Shown: piece after piece, positions 28,981 through 43,229 of the stretch | Layout: every line of letters begins with the position of its first letter | How positions within the stretch are numbered: the first letter of the stretch is position 1 | Assembly: GCF_007828955.1 (NCBI RefSeq) | Contig: NZ_VIVR01000001.1 | Location: 806,001-870,000 of the forward strand | Direction of reading: 5' to 3' | Length of the DNA: 64,000 bases | Source of the DNA: Kitasatospora atroaurantiaca | Lineage (GTDB): Bacteria > Actinomycetota > Actinomycetes > Streptomycetales > Streptomycetaceae | Translations under genes and position numbers: made by a program | Notes under the pieces: model-generated | Databases searched by the model: none | The model's input: the letters and a program-made list of their open reading frames with translations, nothing else | Told to the model about the DNA's origin: nothing

Positions 28981-29085
28981 GCACTTCCGTGTCCTTCATG
29001 TGTGTGAAGTTCGCTGAAGGTCCCCCAACTCGCGTGGTGGATGCGGTTATCTGCCGCCGTCCATCACGGAGGAGTTGGAGGCACG

Positions 29086-30204
29086 ATGCGCGTTCACAGG
29101 GTGCTGATGCCCGGATCCACGACGGAGTCGTGGACGCTGCTGGGGGAGGACCTGCGGCCGGTCGGTCCGGTGGAGTCGTTCCTCGCGTACCTGTCTGCGG
29201 TTGAGCGGTCGCCGAACACCGTCAAGGCGTACGCCCACGATCTGAAGGACTGGTGGACCTACCTCGACGGCCGTGGCCTGGACTGGAAGTCGGTGGATCT
29301 GGAGGCGATGGCCGGGTTTGTCGCCTGGCTGCGGCTGCCGCCAGCGGCCCGGAACGGGGCGGTGGCGGTGCTGCCGACGGTCGAGCACCACTGCACGGCG
29401 TCCAGCGTGAACCGCAAGCTCGCCGCGGTCAGCACGTTCTACGAGTTTCACGCCCGAGGCGGCATTGAGGTCGCCGGGCTGCTGGTGACGATGCGCCCGG
29501 CCGGACCGCACCGGTCCGCGGCCACGTCCTACAAGCCGTTCCTGCAGCACATCGCCTCTGGGAAGCCCGAGCGGACCCGGACCATCAAGCTCAAGACTGG
29601 CCGGACGCATCCGCGTGTCCTGACCGCCGCCCAGGTCCAGAAGATCCTGGACGCCTGCGGACACCTGCGGGACCGGCTGCTGTTCGCCCTCCTGCTGGAC
29701 ACCGGGGTCCGCATCGGCGAGGCCCTTGGCCTGCGGCACGACGACATCGCCATCGCGGAACGGCAGGTGACCGTGGTGCCGCGGCAGAACGACAACCGGG
29801 CCCGGGCGAAGGCGGGCCGCTCCCGCACGATCCCGGCGAGCGCGGAGCTGATGCGGCTGTACTCGGACTACCTGCACCGCGAGTACGGCGCCCTGGACTC
29901 CGACTACGTCTTCGTGAACCTCTTCGCTGAACCGCACGGCCGTCCCTGGGGCTATCCGGCGGTTTATGACCTGGTCCAACGGCTTCGGAAGACCACGGGG
30001 ATCGCCTTCGAACCCCACCAATACCGCCACACCTACGCCACCTGGCTCCTTCGTCGGGGCGCCGGGATGGAGACGGTGAAGGAGTGCCTCGGGCACGCAT
30101 CGATCACCACGACGATCGACACATACGGTCACCTCACCGTCGAGGACGCCCGCCAGACGCTGGAGGCCGCAGGCTGGTTCACCGGCCGGGAGGTCCGGCT
30201 GTGA
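29086..30204 (+). CDS. tnpA: Tyrosine recombinase, TnpA-like
   Basis: A 372-residue phage-integrase-fold recombinase. The N-terminal SAM-like core-binding domain spans about 20-180. The catalytic domain has Arg in DTGVRIGEALGLR, His-x-x-Arg in HQYRHTYATWLL, His in LGHASITTTIDTYGH, and the Tyr nucleophile in the same block. Length agrees with TnpA of Tn554 (361). The start ATG 29086 has GGAG upstream. The stop overlaps the GTG start of tnpB (GTGA), so translation is coupled. Confidence 0.9.
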   Translation: MRVHRVLMPGSTTESWTLLGEDLRPVGPVESFLAYLSAVERSPNTVKAYAHDLKDWWTYLDGRGLDWKSVDLEAMAGFVAWLRLPPAARNGAVAVLPTVEHHCTASSVNRKLAAVSTFYEFHARGGIEVAGLLVTMRPAGPHRSAATSYKPFLQHIASGKPERTRTIKLKTGRTHPRVLTAAQVQKILDACGHLRDRLLFALLLDTGVRIGEALGLRHDDIAIAERQVTVVPRQNDNRARAKAGRSRTIPASAELMRLYSDYLHREYGALDSDYVFVNLFAEPHGRPWGYPAVYDLVQRLRKTTGIAFEPHQYRHTYATWLLRRGAGMETVKECLGHASITTTIDTYGHLTVEDARQTLEAAGWFTGREVRL

Positions 30205-32433
30205 CCTTCCCCGCCGAGAAGGCTCCGGGACGAACGAGGCTGCTTGAGCGGCTGATGGCCGTCGTCCGGCCCGAGTTCCGTACCGAGATCTACATCCCCG
30301 CCCCGGACGACCCCGTGTTCGCCGCCGACGAGTGCGCGGTCGCGAACTGCGACCGGACAGCGGCGTCGACCCGCCGCAGACTCTGCAACGCGCATGCCAT
30401 CCGGTTCCGCAAGCGCGGCTGCCCGCCGATGGCGGACTTCCTGGCCGATCCCGGCCCGCCGGTGAGGGGCCGCCGATCCCTGGCCGCCTGCGTCGTCGCC
30501 GGCTGCCGATACGGACGCGGCGCCAAGAACGGCCTGTGCGCCAAGCACCGCGACCGGTGGACTCGGGCCGGCAAGCCCGACCTGGCCAGCTGGGATGCCC
30601 CTGACCTGGCCCCGGGCGACAGCGCGACCTCCGAGTGCCGTCTGCCGTTCTGCGACCTCTGGGTCGCCAATCCCACGAAACTCTTCTGCGCAGGCCACGA
30701 CGACCGGTGGCACCGTCACGACCGCCCCGACCCCGACCGCTTCATCGCCGACTGCGAACTGGTCGGAACCGCCAGTATCGATCTGCGAGACCTGGCACCG
30801 CAGTTGAGGCTGGAGATCCAGTACGCCTTGCAGTGTCGGCACGACGTCCGCTCCCGGACCGCCGCCCCTCGCCTGGTCATGCCGGCCGTCCGGCGCGTCA
30901 CGGCACTCGGGATCACATCGCTGCTGGACCTGTCGGAACAGCAGTGGCGCCGACGAGTCGGTCCTGTTCCTACTCGATGCCCGTGATGCGCTTGAGGCCC
31001 TGCGGGACGGGATCGGCTGGGAGATCGAGTATTCCAGGGATGTGTGGCGGCTGGACAAGCTGCCCGGCATCACTACTCCGGCCGGGCGTCCCTGCCCGCG
31101 CGCCCGGCTGCGGTTCGACCGCATCAGCCAGCCCTGGCTGCGTGAGCTCGGTAAACGGTGGACGAGGCTGCGGCTGACGTCCGGGCTGAGCATCGGCGCC
31201 GCCCGGGCCGGGGTCGACGCTCTCATCTGCTTCGGCGGCTTCCTCACGTTCGTCGGCGTCGACGCGCTCGCGCACGTGGACCGGCCGCTGCTGGAGCGCT
31301 ACCTCGCGCACGTGATGTCACAGCCCGGCGGGCACGGCATGAAGAAGACGCGGATCGGCTCGCTCAACCTGTTCTTCCAGAACATCCGGCAGCACGGCTG
31401 GGAGCACACGCTGCCCGGCACCGCAACCTTCTACGTCGGTGACGTCCCGCCGGTCCCCGAGCAGGTCGACCGCCGCCTCGCCGAGTACGTCATGACCCAG
31501 GTCGAATCGCCCGGCAACCTGGACCGTTGGCCCGACGCTGCCGGTCGGCTGATTACGCTCATCCTCACCCGTTGCGGACTGCGGATCTCCAGCGCTCTGG
31601 CCCTCGACTTCGACTGCCTCCCCCACGACGGCCAGGGCGCCCCCTACCTGCGCTACTTCAACACCAAGATGAGGCGCGAGGCGGCGGTGCCCATCGATGA
31701 GGAACTCGAAGCAGCCGTCCGCGACCAGCAACGCCGGGTGCTGGACCGCTGGCCGGACGGGACGCCCTGCCTGTTCCCCCGCCAACGCGCCAACGTCTCA
31801 GGGAATCTCCCGCTGGCGGACGGCACTTACCGGCGGATGCTCGGCCGCTGGCTGGCGACCTGCGAGGTCCGCGACGAACACGGCCGGCCAGCACACCTGA
31901 CGCCCCACCAGTGGCGGCACACATTCGCCTGCCGACTCATCAACCGGGACGTCCCGCAAGAGGTCGTCCGAGTCCTCCTGGACCACGACTCGCACAAGAT
32001 GACCTCGCACTACGCCAAGATCACTGACCAGACCGTGCGGCGACACTGGGAGCAGGCAACCAGGGTCAACATCAAGGGCGAACGCGTGGTCCTCGATCCC
32101 GACGGGCCGCTCGGCCAGGCCCAGTGGGCCAAGACCCGCTACGGCATCGCCACCCAGACCCTGCCCAACGGCTACTGCGGACTGCCCGTTCAGAAGACCT
32201 GCCCGCACGCCAACGCCTGCCTGACCTGCCCGGTCTTCCTCACGGGACCCGAGTTCCTGCCCGAGCTTCGCGAACAGCGCACCCGCACATTGACGCTGAT
32301 CAACAACGCGAAGAGCTGTGGCCACACTCGCGTTGCCGAGATGAACCAGCAGGTCACCGACAACCTCGACCGCATGATCAGCGAGCTGGAAGACGGCCAG
32401 GACGAACACGAGGAGTCCGCCGATGCCAGCTGA
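30201..32433 (+). pseudogene. tnpB: Tyrosine recombinase, TnpB-like, with one frameshift
   Basis: Starting at GTG 30201, the first part (to about 30955) has three zinc-finger-like modules of pattern CxxxxC...LCxxH (for example CVVAGC...LCAKH). A one-base shift near 30945-30957 moves the frame; the second part then reads SVLFLLDARDALEALRDGIG and continues without stops to 32433. It contains Arg in LTRCGLRISSALALDFD, His/Arg in LTPHQWRHTFACRLI, and DHDSHKMTSHYAKI with the Tyr. A Cys cluster, CGLPVQKTCPHANACLTC, is near the end. Total is about 744 codons. Apart from the single shift it looks intact, so a sequencing error or recoding cannot be excluded. Confidence 0.85.
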
Positions 32434-32863
32434 CAACGCCCACCTGATCGTCGCCGCGGCCCGACGGCGGGCCGCGGCAACCCGCCGACGCGCGACCTCG
32501 GCCCTGCGGCAGATGGACGCCACCGGCACCGTGATCACCTTCGAGGCAGTCGCCCGCGAAGCGGGCGTCTCCCGGTCCTGGCTCTACAACCAGCCGGACC
32601 TACGAGCCGAGATCGAACGTCTGCGAGCCCGGCATCGCCCCGTCCCCGCTGCCCGCCCGGTTCCCGACCGGCAGCGGGCTTCCGAAGCATCCCTGCTGCG
32701 GCGTTTGGAGGCCGCCACCGAGCGCAACCGGCAGCTGGAGGCGGAGAACCGCGAGCTCAGGCAGGCCCTGGCCCTGGCGTTGGGCGAACGCCGCACGGCC
32801 GACATCTGCGGCATCCGCGCCACGGCGACGTCACCAGCTGCAAGGGCGATCGGCCCGTGCTGA
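32423..32863 (+). CDS. tnpC: TnpC-like accessory protein (DUF6262-type)
   Basis: A 146-residue basic protein. The middle VITFEAVAREAGVSRSWLYN is an HTH-like motif, followed by a predicted coiled coil (LLRRLEAATERNRQLEAENR). Size and position, overlapping the tnpB end by 11 bp, match TnpC of Tn554 and the DUF6262 proteins that accompany paired integrases in actinobacteria. It probably orients or stimulates TnpA/TnpB recombination. Confidence 0.8.
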   Translation: MPADNAHLIVAAARRRAAATRRRATSALRQMDATGTVITFEAVAREAGVSRSWLYNQPDLRAEIERLRARHRPVPAARPVPDRQRASEASLLRRLEAATERNRQLEAENRELRQALALALGERRTADICGIRATATSPAARAIGPC

Positions 32864-32980: not shown

Positions 32981-33418
32981 ATGATGAGGAGCACGGTGAT
33001 AAGCCAGGGCGTGAAGATCACAACACGATGCGAAGCCTGCGGCGGTGTGCTGATACTCGACACCGGCCAGTCCATCGAACGCGGGCGCCTGTGGTGGGGA
33101 ACCGAGGGGGCCTGCCAATCCTGCCCCGTCGCCTGGTGCGAGCAGGACTTCGGCGACGCGACTCCGGAGGCGATCCGTCAGGCCCTCCTCGCGGAACACG
33201 GACCCGCCCGGCTCCGGCTGACAGCGCCCGAGGCGAGTGCAGTGCCCGTCCTTCGCGCTCTTCGAGAGGTGCACGGCCTGTCACTGGCACAAGCACGGGC
33301 CCTGGCAGACGAGTTGAAGACGACCAGCCTCGTGGGCACGTTCGTCGAGATGGAACTCGTAGCCGCCCGGCTCCGACACCATTCCGTCGGAGTGACAGTC
33401 GAGACATCATCCGGCTGA
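32981..33418 (+). CDS. Cargo protein: zinc ribbon plus ribosomal L7/L12 C-terminal-like domain
   Basis: A 145-residue protein inside the Tn554-like element. The N-terminal half has two Cys pairs (CEACGG and CQSCPVAWC), suggesting a zinc ribbon. The C-terminal half (about 85-140), PVLRALREVHGLSLAQARAL then VEMELVAARLRHHSVGVTVE, follows the L7/L12 C-terminal pattern VIKxVREITGLGLKEAKxLV...AEEIKAKLEEAGATVEI. Function unknown; an interaction with translation GTPases would be speculative. ATG 32981 or 32984 is the start; the RBS is weak. Confidence 0.65.
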   Translation: MMRSTVISQGVKITTRCEACGGVLILDTGQSIERGRLWWGTEGACQSCPVAWCEQDFGDATPEAIRQALLAEHGPARLRLTAPEASAVPVLRALREVHGLSLAQARALADELKTTSLVGTFVEMELVAARLRHHSVGVTVETSSG

Positions 33419-34158: not shown

Positions 34159-35784
34159 TCAGGCCAACTCCAGGAGCACCGGCCGGGTGGTGATGGTGAT
34201 GACCTCGCCGGTCCGGGGCTCCGAGGTGCTGCCGTCGAGGTACCTGACGTGTCGAACCTCTGGCCGAACCGCGGTGCGGACGGTGCCGACGGATGTCCAC
34301 TGGATCAGGAACGCCCGGCCGTCCTCACCGGTGAAGGCACACTGCCAGATGCCTTCCGGCAGCCCGGCCGCCGAGCCTTGCCCGCACGACCGGATCAGCG
34401 CCCCGTGCAGCCAGCGTTGCAGCTCCTCGACTGCCATGGCGGCCGGGGTCGGTGACCCGCCGTCGGGTTGCAGCACGATCGGGATCTTCGAGCCGCCCCA
34501 GTTGTAGAAGTACATCCGCCGGATCTGCGCGACAAGGCCGACGAGGTAGAAGCGCACCGCGGAGTCGGTGGCCATCTGCGGGTCCAGCGGTTGCGCGAGC
34601 GGGATGTCGTACGTCGTACCGGTGCTCCACAGCGCTGGATGGGCACCGGCGCGGTGGAACGCCTGGTCGATGCGCTCGGTGAGCTCGAGCATGGTCTCCG
34701 GTGTGTCGGATGCCTGGCGCTGGTGCAGCTTCACGCCGGCGGCGTCGCAGTGATCGTAGGCGCCCAGGCGGGCGAACTGCTCCAGGGCGGACTGCGCCTC
34801 GGGCTTCCAGAGCTGTCCCATGGAGGGGCAGACGACGACCGCCGCCGGATCCTGTGCCTTCACCATCGCGGACGCCCGGCGGGTCATCTCGGCGAGCGTC
34901 TCCATCGAGCCGCTGAAGTAGCGGGCGTCGTTGCCCATCACCCACAGCTCGTACGCCTCGATGCGGCCCTGGTAGCGCTGCGCAACCGCGGTGACGAAGG
35001 CGTCCCAGTCGGCCAGGTCGTCGGGCGGAGAGGTTCGTGAACCGTCGTCGTACGCCGCCCGCGGCCCGCCGGGGCTGGCCCAGCCGGGGGTACCCCCCAT
35101 CGTGAACGTCACCGGCAGACCGTGCTGGCTCGCGCCGGCCACCAATCGATCCAGGATCGACCAGTCGAACTCGCCGCGCCGGGGCTGGATGTTCGCCCAC
35201 CTGGTCCGGCTGTCCCAAAGCCGCACGGCGCCGACCTGGAAGGTGGGCATGGCACCACTGGAGCTGTTCATGGTCACACCGAAGAACTTCGGCGGGACGG
35301 GAGTCGGGGCCTGCGTCCAGGGGTGACCAATGGAGACCGGCCGCTGCGCGGCGGCGCCGGACGGGGGCGTCGGTTCGCCTGGCAGCACGGCCAGTAGCGC
35401 GAGCATGGCCCACGCGACCACCCAGGCCGCTGTTCTGGTCCGCGGCCCCGGGAGCGCCGGTATGTGCCGCCGCTCCGGTGCGGCCGGCGCCGCCCGCGGC
35501 TCGACAGCCGACAGAGTCGTTGACTCGACCCGATCGCCGGGCTCGCCGGCCCGGGACCACAGACGGTACAGCCGGTCGATCTCGGCCCGGTCCGCGCCGC
35601 AGGCCCGGGCGATGGTCTCGGCGGTGCCGAAATCACGGGGAAGGCCGCTCCCGGAGCAGTACCGGTGCACGCTGGAGCGGCTCAGATTCGTCTTACGGGA
35701 AAGCCACTCGTAACTTACGCCCTGACGTTTCTTCAACCAGTCCAGGAAATCGGCGAATTCCTGTAGGGCCCCCGAGCGAGACAT
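34159..35784 (-). CDS. HTH - transmembrane - GH39-like extracytoplasmic protein
   Basis: A 541-residue protein. An XRE-type HTH (about 12-60: VSYEWLSRKTNLSRSSVHRY) is followed by a disordered linker and one TM segment (about 116-135: TAAWVVAWAMLALLAVLPG). An outside (beta/alpha)8 glycosidase-like domain (about 165-460) and a C-terminal beta domain complete it. In clan-A enzymes of this type the acid/base motif is WNEP(N); here it is YELWVMGND, with no Glu. The nucleophile region reads ALWSTGTTYD, also without Glu. Thus the barrel looks non-catalytic and may act as a sugar sensor coupled to the cytoplasmic HTH. GH39-like assignment is by motif only. Confidence 0.72.
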   Translation of the reverse strand: MSRSGALQEFADFLDWLKKRQGVSYEWLSRKTNLSRSSVHRYCSGSGLPRDFGTAETIARACGADRAEIDRLYRLWSRAGEPGDRVESTTLSAVEPRAAPAAPERRHIPALPGPRTRTAAWVVAWAMLALLAVLPGEPTPPSGAAAQRPVSIGHPWTQAPTPVPPKFFGVTMNSSSGAMPTFQVGAVRLWDSRTRWANIQPRRGEFDWSILDRLVAGASQHGLPVTFTMGGTPGWASPGGPRAAYDDGSRTSPPDDLADWDAFVTAVAQRYQGRIEAYELWVMGNDARYFSGSMETLAEMTRRASAMVKAQDPAAVVVCPSMGQLWKPEAQSALEQFARLGAYDHCDAAGVKLHQRQASDTPETMLELTERIDQAFHRAGAHPALWSTGTTYDIPLAQPLDPQMATDSAVRFYLVGLVAQIRRMYFYNWGGSKIPIVLQPDGGSPTPAAMAVEELQRWLHGALIRSCGQGSAAGLPEGIWQCAFTGEDGRAFLIQWTSVGTVRTAVRPEVRHVRYLDGSTSEPRTGEVITITTRPVLLELA

Positions 35785-36018
35785 GCCTCACCACTCCACT
35801 GTCCGAAATCGGCCGGGCCAGTGTCCCACGGCGGCCTAGGACACCCACCGTCCCCGTCCCAGGAGCCCACATCAGTGCAGGTCAGAGTAGAGGTCGCATC
35901 CCATCGTCCCGTTGGGCCGAAAGCCTGTTGACCACGAGCGAGCGGATCCACCAGGATCCGTCCGGCCCGGGCACGACGCTCGCCGGGCACCCCACCTCCG
36001 TGCCGTCAGGGAGAAATC

Positions 36019-37875
36019 ATGCGCATACTGAAACGCGGGCTCACATTCCTGCTCGCCCTGTGCCTGTCCATTGCCGGGATCGCCACAGTGGGCAGTACCC
36101 CGGCCGCTGCAGACGACTGCGCCTTCGACTGGGGGCTAATCGGCTGTGGTGTGGTTTGGAACAAAGCACCGTTGGCCGTGCAAATCGCCAACGACTGGTG
36201 CTTTGACCGATCCGACCCACACACGAAAAACGGATTCCAGGGCGACGCTCCGCGCTGCGGATCCACGGTCGATCTGCCTCCCGACCACAACTCGAAGGAG
36301 TACTTCAACGACACGGACGCCTTCCGGGCCTTCCGCGGGTGCATCACGACGGTCCAGATAGGCCTCTTCGGTACGCCGACCACGTACAACCGATGGACCG
36401 ATACAAGCCTGTGGATCAAGGTCTACGGTGAGGACCCGACTCTGATCGTCACCGACATCGTGTGCGGCGGCCCCGGCCCCCGCACCCCCGCGGGGGGCGG
36501 GCACCACCCGCCGATCGACCCGGACAACCCGGATTCGGACACCGGCGGCGGCAACAACGGCGGTTCGGCCGGCTACGACTACTACACCGTCACCACCAAC
36601 GGCGTCACCGTGGGCGCAGCCAACCCGGACTGCGCCAACTACCCGAGTGGCACCACCTGCGCGCCGGGAATCGACACCATCAACACTGGCGACCGCTTCA
36701 CCCCGCACTGCCAGAAGTCGGGCCAGAGCATCGGCCAGAACCCGTACTGGGTGTACGGCACCACCAGCCACAAGCAGACCGGCTGGATCCCGTCCTGGTG
36801 GATCAACTACCCCGACAACGTGCTGCCCGGCGTCCCGTTCTGCCAAGGCGCCGACGGCGTGTACCCGAATGCACCACGTCCCGAACGCAAGCCGGCCGTC
36901 ATCGTCGGAAACGACGGCAATCTCCAGGCCTTCGCCCGCGGTGCGGCCAACACGCTGCGGTACCAGTGGATGGACCGCACCAACGGCGTGTGGCACGACT
37001 ACGGCGCGTTGAACGTCAACGTCGCTGGCGACCCGGCCGCCGTGGTCGGCAGTGACGGCAACACTGTCGTCCTCACCCGCGGGACCGACAACACGCTGCG
37101 TCTGAACTGGATGAACAAGGACAACGGCATCTGGAGCGGCAGCCTCACCATCGCCACCGGCATCGCCGGCGACCCTGCCGTGATGAAGGACAACCAGGGC
37201 AACCTCCAGGCATTCGCCCGCGGCACCGACGGCACGCTGCGGTACCTGTGGCAGAACCGCACCAACGGGCAGTGGAGCGCCACCATGACGCTCAACACGG
37301 CCATGGCCGGCGACCCCGCTGCAGTGCTGGGCAGTGACGGCAACAGCGTCGTCCTCACCCGCGGGACCGACAACACGCTGCGTCTGAACTGGATGAACAA
37401 GGACAACGGCATCTGGAGCGGCAGCCTCACCATCGCCACCGGCATCGCCGGCGACCCTGCCGTGATGAAGGACAACCAGGGCAACCTCCAGGCATTCGCC
37501 CGCGGCACCGACCGGACGCTGCGGTACCTCTGGCAGAACCGCAGCAACGGGCAGTGGAGCGCCACCATGGCGCTCAACACGGCCATGGCCGGAGCCCCGG
37601 CGGCAGTCGTCGGCGCGGACGGCAACTCCGTAGTCCTCACCCGCGGCACCGACGGCACCCTGCGCCTGAACTGGATGAACAAGGACAACGGGGTCTGGAG
37701 CAGCAGCCTCAACGTCACCGGCGACCTGTCCGGTGACCCCGCGCTGGTCCGCGGCAGCGACGGGAACCTCGTGACGCTCCTGCGCGGCGCGGACGCCACG
37801 CTGCGCATGCACTGGATGAACAAGGACAACGGCCAGTGGAGCGGCAGCCTCGCACTGGCCAACGATATGGCCTGA
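36019..37875 (+). CDS. Secreted lectin-like protein with a seven-bladed PLL-type propeller
   Basis: A 618-residue exported protein. The signal peptide ends near TPAAA-DD (residue 31). A Cys-containing N-domain (32-150), a Gly/Pro/Asp linker (about 150-188) and an SH3-like Cys-containing region (about 189-285) precede a C-terminal array of exactly seven 47-residue repeats (290-618). Each repeat carries GSDGNxxxLTRGTDxTLRxNWMN and a WSG or WSA close. This is the pattern of the PLL/PHL/AFL-type propeller lectins that bind fucose or other sugars. Blades 2-3 and 4-5 are almost identical at DNA level, so the array grew by duplication. Probable role: cell-surface or glycan recognition. Confidence 0.85.
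   Translation: MRILKRGLTFLLALCLSIAGIATVGSTPAAADDCAFDWGLIGCGVVWNKAPLAVQIANDWCFDRSDPHTKNGFQGDAPRCGSTVDLPPDHNSKEYFNDTDAFRAFRGCITTVQIGLFGTPTTYNRWTDTSLWIKVYGEDPTLIVTDIVCGGPGPRTPAGGGHHPPIDPDNPDSDTGGGNNGGSAGYDYYTVTTNGVTVGAANPDCANYPSGTTCAPGIDTINTGDRFTPHCQKSGQSIGQNPYWVYGTTSHKQTGWIPSWWINYPDNVLPGVPFCQGADGVYPNAPRPERKPAVIVGNDGNLQAFARGAANTLRYQWMDRTNGVWHDYGALNVNVAGDPAAVVGSDGNTVVLTRGTDNTLRLNWMNKDNGIWSGSLTIATGIAGDPAVMKDNQGNLQAFARGTDGTLRYLWQNRTNGQWSATMTLNTAMAGDPAAVLGSDGNSVVLTRGTDNTLRLNWMNKDNGIWSGSLTIATGIAGDPAVMKDNQGNLQAFARGTDRTLRYLWQNRSNGQWSATMALNTAMAGAPAAVVGADGNSVVLTRGTDGTLRLNWMNKDNGVWSSSLNVTGDLSGDPALVRGSDGNLVTLLRGADATLRMHWMNKDNGQWSGSLALANDMA
37066..37230 (+). repeat. 165-bp perfect direct repeat within the lectin gene (copy 1)
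   Basis: This stretch is identical to 37348-37512, an offset of 282 bp or exactly two blades (94 codons). It shows a recent in-frame duplication of a two-blade unit. Confidence 0.9.
37348..37512 (+). repeat. 165-bp perfect direct repeat within the lectin gene (copy 2)
   Basis: Identical to 37066-37230; the surrounding bases of the two-blade unit differ by only scattered substitutions. Confidence 0.9.
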
Positions 37876-42532: not shown

Positions 42533-43190
42533 CCCGAGCCTCGGATCACACTCGCAGACCCTGCTTTCGTCCAATACGAGCGACGACGACGGCGGATATC
42601 TGGCATACGGCTACATCGAAAACACGGTCGTCGAGGCTCAGAAGTTCACCGTATGCAACGCGAACCACTACTTCTACGACGAGTTCCGGCCGAACCTGTA
42701 CATGCACCGCAACATTCTGCACGTGTACGACTGCAGGGACGGCCTCACGTGCAGGTTCGACCACGTCGTGTACAGCCCCTGGTACGAGGGCACCGCCTAC
42801 CCCGCTGGTCCGGTCAGTTACCCGAGCATTCCCGACCCTGATTCCACAGAGCCTCTCCCGGATGGCAACGGTGGCTGGACCGCACCGCTGCCGGTCCACG
42901 AACTGACCAAGCCACAGCTGACAGTCGGTGCTGACGGCAACTTGCAGGCCTTTGCCACCGGTGCGGACGGCATCCTGAAGTACCTGTGGATGGACAAGAG
43001 CACCGGCCGGTGGAGCAGCCCCGGCACGCTCAACATCAACACCGCCGGCAATCCGGCCGCCGTGGTCGGCAGCGACGGTAATACCGTCGTGCTCAGCCGG
43101 GGCACCAACGGCGACCTGCGGCTGAACTGGATGAACAGCTCCTCCGGGAACTGGAGTCCAAGCCTCACCATCGCCACCAACCTCGCATGA
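42533..43190 (+). pseudogene. Second PLL-type lectin gene, 5'-truncated, two blades only
   Basis: After the IS junction, a frame (readable from about 42540) encodes a Cys-containing domain (FTVCNANHYFYDEFRP, HVYDCRDGLTCRFDHVVYSP) and two 47-residue blades (KPQLTVGADGNLQAFATG and NPAAVVGSDGNTVVLSRG) to a natural stop at 43190. It is the same family as the gene at 36019-37875 but has lost its start and signal peptide. The frame stays open through the IS, so a chimeric product is possible but unlikely to be secreted. Confidence 0.8.
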
Positions 43191-43196
43191 TCCGTT

Positions 43197-43229
43197 CCCG
43201 GCGGCGACCCGGTCATGGTCGCCGCCGGG
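43197..43229 (+). terminator. Hairpin terminator of the second lectin gene
   Basis: CCCGGCGGCGACC (43197-43209) pairs perfectly with 43217-43229 across a 7-base loop, 7 bp past the stop. Confidence 0.8.

Follow-up and report, generated by a model that had tools for sequence, protein, structure and literature searches.

The analyzed window, a 64,000-nucleotide stretch of the Kitasatospora atroaurantiaca genome, contains a gene for a predicted membrane-bound regulator and, divergently oriented to it, a gene for a secreted partner protein. Their domains and the putative promoter elements between them are summarized in Table 1. The initial annotation had given the correct coordinates and strand for the regulator ORF, and its description of the product as an XRE-like helix-turn-helix (HTH) protein with one transmembrane (TM) segment agrees with the Pfam and hydropathy results. 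Just downstream of the regulator (29041-32863) lie genes for two tyrosine recombinases and, after them, one for a DUF6262 protein, an order that we take to be that of a Tn554-like transposition module. A small ORF at 32981-33418 shows a weak similarity, below the cut-off (E 0.008), to the C-terminal domain of ribosomal protein L7/L12.

Table 1. Features of the regulator-partner locus (positions within the window)
Feature	Position	Strand	Basis
Regulator, 541 aa: HTH_31, one TM segment, pseudo-GH39 barrel, C-terminal beta-sandwich	34159..35784	-	intact ORF
HTH_31 domain, residues 9-72	35569..35760	-	Pfam E 1.1e-11, above Pfam's cut-off
Recognition helix in HTH_31, about residues 36-44			AlphaFold helix 36-44
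TM segment, residues 117-142	35359..35436	-	hydropathy scan (one TM segment)
Pseudo-GH39 (beta/alpha)8 barrel, residues 168-435, predicted outside	34480..35283	-	AlphaFold, Foldseek, profile alignment
Met283, position of the acid/base Glu	34936..34938	-	profile alignment with PslG
Gly389, position of the nucleophile Glu	34618..34620	-	profile alignment with PslG
Direct-repeat element CATCCCATCGTCCCG, candidate operator	35897..35911	+	motif search, scans; CRTCCCANYGTCCCR otherwise absent from the genome
Candidate -35 (TTGACC, 35928-35933) and -10 (CAGGAT, 35952-35957), 18-nt spacer, toward the partner	35928..35957	+	
Secreted partner, 618 aa, signal-peptide-like N-terminus, divergent from the regulator	36019..37875	+	ORF, Pfam
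Conserved N-terminal domain of the partner, all-beta in the model	36109..36465	+	iterated profile, model
Lectin-like repeats of the partner, residues about 285-618	36871..37872	+	one DUF346 match, residues 398-435, E 3.6e-9

The regulator carries HTH_31, a hydrophobic segment and the barrel in a single chain, as in one-component regulators. In its AlphaFold model (mean pLDDT 86.8; input alignment of 47 family members) the HTH part consists of five helices and the membrane part of a helix (residues 120-133) within a stretch of low pLDDT. Eight beta/alpha units follow at high pLDDT, with strands at residues 168, 186, 225, 277, 316, 348, 384 and 423, and the chain ends in a beta-sandwich. A hydrophobic 17-mer between HTH and barrel is present in all 53 rows of the family alignment. 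We infer that the barrel lies outside the cell, a placement that fits the arginines ahead of the TM segment and the four invariant cysteines of the outer part (319, 346, 467 and 482). A Pfam scan up to E 1 revealed no anti-sigma domain at the N-terminus, which is occupied by HTH_31 instead.

From sequence alone, Pfam gave weak GH42 and GH10 hints for the barrel and nothing stronger. Its best solved relative is PslG of Pseudomonas aeruginosa, a GH39 endoglycosidase (Foldseek 9.4e-21), with other GH39 and clan GH-A enzymes ranking after it. Both proteins consist of a barrel and a C-terminal beta-sandwich, and they superpose over 364 aligned residues with Z 33.7 and rmsd 2.9; the regulator-family profile also matches PslG (E 9.5e-8). 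In PslG, Glu165 is the acid/base and Glu276 the nucleophile (PMC11912335); we converted chain indices to entry numbering by our own arithmetic. Since the profile alignment pairs W-N-E-P of PslG with W-V-M-G of the regulator, and W-S-T-E with W-S-T-G, these glutamates correspond to Met283 and Gly389. The fold is thus that of GH39, but neither of the catalytic glutamates expected after strands 4 and 7 is present, and by the residues that define a GH39 enzyme the regulator is not one and is predicted to be a pseudo-enzyme. Whereas PslG is an enzyme with both glutamates, the regulator barrel lacks them and is fused to a TM segment and an HTH domain. The initial annotation had proposed an outer glycosidase barrel with a replaced WNEP-type Glu (ELWVMGND) and no Glu at the nucleophile strand, and the alignment with PslG bears out each of these points.

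To find relatives, one genome per species was scanned (84,980 species) with two short peptide patterns as seeds, so that the 60 public loci recovered are not an exhaustive set. The genera include Herbidospora, Nonomuraea, Amycolatopsis, Lentzea, Dactylosporangium, Actinokineospora and Streptomyces. HTH and barrel are encoded in one ORF at 55 of the 60 loci, and a lack of the HTH in homologues, the finding that the initial annotation had named as contrary to its reading, is therefore not what was observed. With the window and a same-genus genome added, there are 57 such sources, carrying 22 organism labels plus the window's genus. The other five loci comprise L109 and L119, in which the barrel occurs without a detected HTH, and L114, L115 and L118, which are broken or fragmentary. 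Within the window's genus a close match was found in only two of 70 genomes (the window's own, G000, and G065, 70% over the barrel), and the matches in 20 further genomes were all at E 2e-10 or weaker. Of the 60 public loci, 51 entered the 53-row alignment, together with the window and L032; partial BLAST spans led to the omission of L098, L109, L113, L114, L115, L118, L119, L120 and L121. The AlphaFold input omitted six further rows (L032, L081, L088, L096, L103 and L116).

All 57 proteins that combine HTH and barrel in a single ORF lack both catalytic glutamates. The nearest relatives without an HTH, about 30% identical (28 rows from 24 loci, 0/28 with an HTH), retain both in every row. At the acid/base site the regulator family shows Val, Asp, Ala or Ser followed by Leu, Met, Phe, Tyr or Ser, and the relatives Asn-Glu (28/28); at the nucleophile site Gly occupies all 57 aligned rows and Glu all 28 rows of the relatives. 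Among the loci outside the 53-row alignment, both glutamates are missing from L098, L113, L120 and L121, which possess HTH and barrel, and also from L109 and L119, where no HTH was found. The two frames of L114 carry W-V-L-G and W-S-T-G, and the L118 fragment W-S-T-G at the nucleophile site. The barrel fragment of L115 has Asp (W-N-T-D) in place of Gly at that position, and in G256, with the same type of contig region, the regulator match contains a stop.

The residues around the lost catalytic site are the best conserved part of the barrel: columns that are at least 95% identical make up 45% of the catalytic face, 23% of the opposite face and 18% of the helices. In the comparison of 57 rows (55 distinct, L146 being a duplicate of L089 and L148 of L108), the strand-6 His of most enzymes is replaced by an invariant Lys352, and a new Cys pair, Cys319/Cys346, is likewise invariant. 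Because the catalytic face is both the best conserved and remodelled, its sequence speaks for a retooled pocket, conserved as a catalytically dead family, and not for plain decay. A lone decayed gene was also considered and ruled out, since the dead barrel is kept in 57 of 57 proteins. In the phylogenetic tree, built from the same rows, the dead barrels are recovered as a single clade that excludes the enzymes, with support 0.97 and a long stem (57 tips including the two repeats). The HTH-less dead barrel L149 (= L109) nests within it beside L105 and L106, so that its regulator half was probably lost secondarily. At this locus the frame of the partner gene abuts that of the barrel.

The partner was described in the initial annotation as a lectin-like neighbour. 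This holds for its C-terminal half, with one DUF346 match, and does not extend to the N-terminal half; what is conserved in the partner is a small, Cys-rich N-terminal domain of about 110 residues. Among these loci the lectin-like repeats are found in the window, in L058 (DUF346 E 7.3e-13, five stretches) and, by tblastn, in L064. In G065, too, a secreted protein is encoded divergently; its N-terminal domain is similar, and it has DUF346-type repeats of its own. A second stretch resembling the partner's repeats occurs in the window at 42867-43220 (tblastn, 59% over 105 residues).

The N-terminal domain was traced with an iterated profile in all six frames of the 60 public loci, the window, L058 and L059, up to 8 kb on each side. 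Besides the window and L058, 32 of the 60 public loci contain it (34 sources in total), always within 1.6 kb of the regulator and in 31 cases within 700 bp. It was missing by this profile at 28 of the 60 loci, five of which (L069, L084, L095, L105 and L121) have a second small secreted family adjoining the regulator. No Pfam name was obtained for either family in the ten neighbours scanned. Apart from the partner, no shared gene neighbourhood could be distinguished: clusters present in four or five loci come mostly from one genus (Dactylosporangium), and others are scattered. Elsewhere, the partner domain was found in one of 41 genus genomes sampled, namely the window's own (G065 is outside this sample), and in 21 of 394 genomes of the class (24 matches, with 12 candidates scored per genome). 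A single-protein query for the regulator (3 candidates scored per genome) gave matches at E<1e-60 in six of the 394: G000, G235, G343, G282, G171 and the G256 fragment with a stop. Only four genomes are common to both sets, too few for class-wide co-occurrence to be relied on, and in G235 the partner is not adjacent to the regulator. The partner-domain model is all-beta (pLDDT 86.4), and no solved fold matches it in Foldseek at E<=0.001. Its similarity to spherulin 3a (Z 5.0) and gamma-crystallin (Z 4.6), scores tied with those of unrelated rows, makes a betagamma-crystallin likeness a weak lead only.

A motif search in 47 of the 53 regulator-upstream regions revealed a direct repeat, CGTCCCAnCGTCCC, with a log-likelihood of 115.5, as against 60.7, 56.0 and 55.9 in three first-order resampled sets. 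A palindromic operator was rejected: such models scored 38.6 to 64.5, and their resampled counterparts 25.9 to 45.9, so the direct repeat is far clearer. When 1.11 Mb of loci were scanned at 15 bits, 34 of the 42 matches fell no more than 1.5 kb from an end of the regulator; of the remaining eight, three are inside the regulator gene. Many partner promoters carry the consensus CRTCCCAnYGTCCC. For 17 loci the partner promoter lies outside the training windows; ten of these (L062, L068, L072, L080, L083, L096, L100, L102, L104 and L108) score at least 15 bits upstream of the partner and on its strand, so that in the sequences compared the candidate element follows the partner gene when this lies elsewhere. 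At the same threshold it is present in only 18 of the 40 regions upstream of partner or second-family genes. A second matrix, trained on divergent loci only and without L114, L115 and L118, was the strongest of that training and settled on one repeat copy plus flank, not on a clean double repeat. It recognized 11 of the 17 test promoters and 17 of 576 other genes at 10 bits, and 7 of 17 and 3 of 576 at 12 bits; as the loci are related, the Fisher p-values are inflated.

A fixed pattern of the repeat gave 48 sites near the regulator, distributed over 41 of 62 sources, and 33 distant (far) sites; no such simple pattern was found near the regulator in the other 21 sources. A TTG follows 16-18 nt after the repeat at 25 of the 48 near sites (14 labels) and at none of the 33 far sites. 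The far sites are a weak control, being largely antisense to regulator codons; a better one is provided by 13 other offsets from 10 to 25 at the near sites, which yielded four TTG in total. In the window the repeat is followed by 17 nt, the candidate -35 hexamer, an 18-nt spacer, the candidate -10 hexamer and the ATG at 36019, and in L080 and L100 a -10-like TAGAGT lies downstream of the TTG. With 17 nt between repeat and -35, the repeat is centred near -60, which is an activator position, as for class I activators. The exact pattern has one copy in the window's own 7.87-Mb genome, and sites with one mismatch number 24, about as many as the 27 of the reversed control. A second exact site in G065 was discarded, as it lies within the coding frame of an AraC-like gene and has no TTG at the spacing. 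At two Amycolatopsis loci (L082 and L088) the gene toward which the repeat reads is not that of the small domain but encodes a secreted protein whose sequence shows, in our reading, HxK-type motifs resembling those of phospholipase D; in L063, L086, L093 and L111 the repeat points to a gene whose product resembles a transcription regulator and not a secreted protein.

Seventeen partner genes with no such regulator in the sequence retrieved around them have no 15-bit site upstream (best 11.4), which indicates that the element goes with the regulator and not with the partner family. Two of the genomes concerned (G235 and G171) carry a member of the regulator family elsewhere. A looser form of the repeat was noted in three of these regions, close to the partner and on its strand in L179 and L184 and on the other strand in L175, with no TTG 16-18 nt on. 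In the predicted recognition helix Ser37 and Arg41 are invariant, and residue 40 is His in 48 of 53 rows. In four Streptomyces loci (L066, L069, L091 and L116) the repeats are altered to GTTCCA/GTGCCA or GTTCCA/GTTCCA, and the TTG remains at its distance of 17 nt. Tyr40 is confined to these four loci; L108 combines Asn40 with the canonical repeat. Since the four loci form one clade, this covariation likely reflects a single event.

In the interpretation that we favour, at a probability of about 0.7, the protein is a transmembrane one-component activator: its cytoplasmic HTH domain would bind the repeat near -60 of the partner promoter, and the Glu-less GH39 barrel outside the cell would sense a ligand. 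This agrees with the one-component membrane sensor made from a dead glycosidase that had been suggested at the outset, given the conserved layout, the loss of the glutamates and the promoter element shared with the secreted neighbour. As both glutamates are lost and the remodelled cleft is conserved, the barrel may bind its putative ligand in the old cleft without cutting it. The ligand would most likely be a carbohydrate of the wall, capsule or exopolysaccharide, and the earlier idea that the protein and its neighbour may both read glycans is plausible. Binding may change the dimer state or the stability of the single-pass protein and thereby promoter activity, the membrane-held HTH engaging the direct repeat and recruiting polymerase to the partner promoter. 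The secreted partner would then act outside, perhaps on the same glycan. Tentatively, and with considerable doubt, the pair may be seen as a self-contained surface-surveillance circuit that is widespread among actinomycetes and in which the receptor monitors an outer glycan, or the partner bound to it. The small beta-domain product, in some cases equipped with lectin repeats, would act on this glycan or compete for it and so close a direct feedback loop. If true, the circuit would represent, in bacteria, the equivalent of a receptor made from a dead enzyme and coupled to an output of its own.

Other explanations are conceivable for both halves of the protein. A different protein (an alternative sigma factor or another activator) might recognize the repeat, and the membrane protein might only sense or anchor; the repeat-to-TTG spacing of 16-18 nt would also suit the -35/-10 pair of another sigma factor, and in L109 both barrel and partner are retained although no HTH was detected. 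We regard this as fairly unlikely, however, because a single exact site in the genome suits a dedicated local factor, the site is lacking at all 17 partner-only genes, repeat and residue 40 change together in four loci, and the TTG is followed by a -10-like hexamer of its own in the window and in L080 and L100. It is quite improbable that the regulator represses the partner gene until a ligand relieves repression: XRE-type HTH proteins are often repressors, but here the repeat is situated upstream of the -35 at nearly fixed spacing, the position of an activator, and not over the -35/-10 region.

Domain order alone, an HTH followed by a TM segment, does not prove DNA binding, and the HTH could be a protein-binding scaffold, as in RodZ, with the barrel as a wall anchor and no direct control of genes. 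Invariant Ser37 and Arg41, together with a promoter element tied to the gene pair, make such a role very unlikely. That the barrel retains some other catalytic activity through other residues is likewise very unlikely: both GH-A catalytic glutamates are replaced, and the nucleophile has become Gly in 57 of 57 full-length proteins, even though a strongly conserved catalytic face with an invariant Lys352 might be expected of an enzyme as well.

Transmembrane one-component regulators are common, and few of their sensors are understood. The regulator described here is, by its predicted domains, a variant of this class and neither an RsgI protein nor a GH39 enzyme. RsgI6 of Clostridium thermocellum reportedly signals by proteolysis and SigI. 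It is described as an anti-sigma factor with an outer GH10 domain that is very weakly active yet binds its carbohydrates and serves as a sensor (PMC4711584); it is also a single-pass regulator with a C-terminal glycosidase-family domain outside, but it joins a cytoplasmic anti-sigma domain to GH10, whereas the regulator joins an HTH to GH39. The layout of HTH, TM segment and outer sensor is shared with ToxR, TcpP and CadC (PMC10269533), from which the regulator differs in its XRE-like HTH_31 and its pseudo-glycosidase sensor; the main text of that survey of transmembrane regulators has no mention of 'XRE' or 'glyco'. No description of the regulator family or of the partner was found in searches of the open-licence PMC literature, which does not prove that none exists. 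The Klotho pseudo-glycosidases of animals, hormone co-receptors of family GH1, are another case of a dead glycosidase barrel as part of a receptor; unlike the regulator barrel, they are not known to be fused to a DNA-binding domain.

The conversion of an enzyme into a putative sensor can be read here residue by residue against close intact relatives, and the single-target promoter element offers a ready reporter. It can thus be tested which glycan fits the retooled GH39 cleft and how a single-pass protein signals to a promoter. The window's own genome also contains a decayed second copy of the regulator (G000:C1:2924391-2925175; L011 and L059), which has lost the barrel core and retains, in two different frames, recognizable residues about 31-186 and 438-540; the 20-kb stretch around it yielded no partner domain. 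Actinomycete HTH-TM proteins (L014-L030 except L028) have a similar HTH and TM layout, but their outer domain, similar among themselves, is shorter and unrelated and contains no glycosidase barrel. The impression is of a common chassis fitted with another sensor, and proteins of this type are common in the window's genus and a related family.
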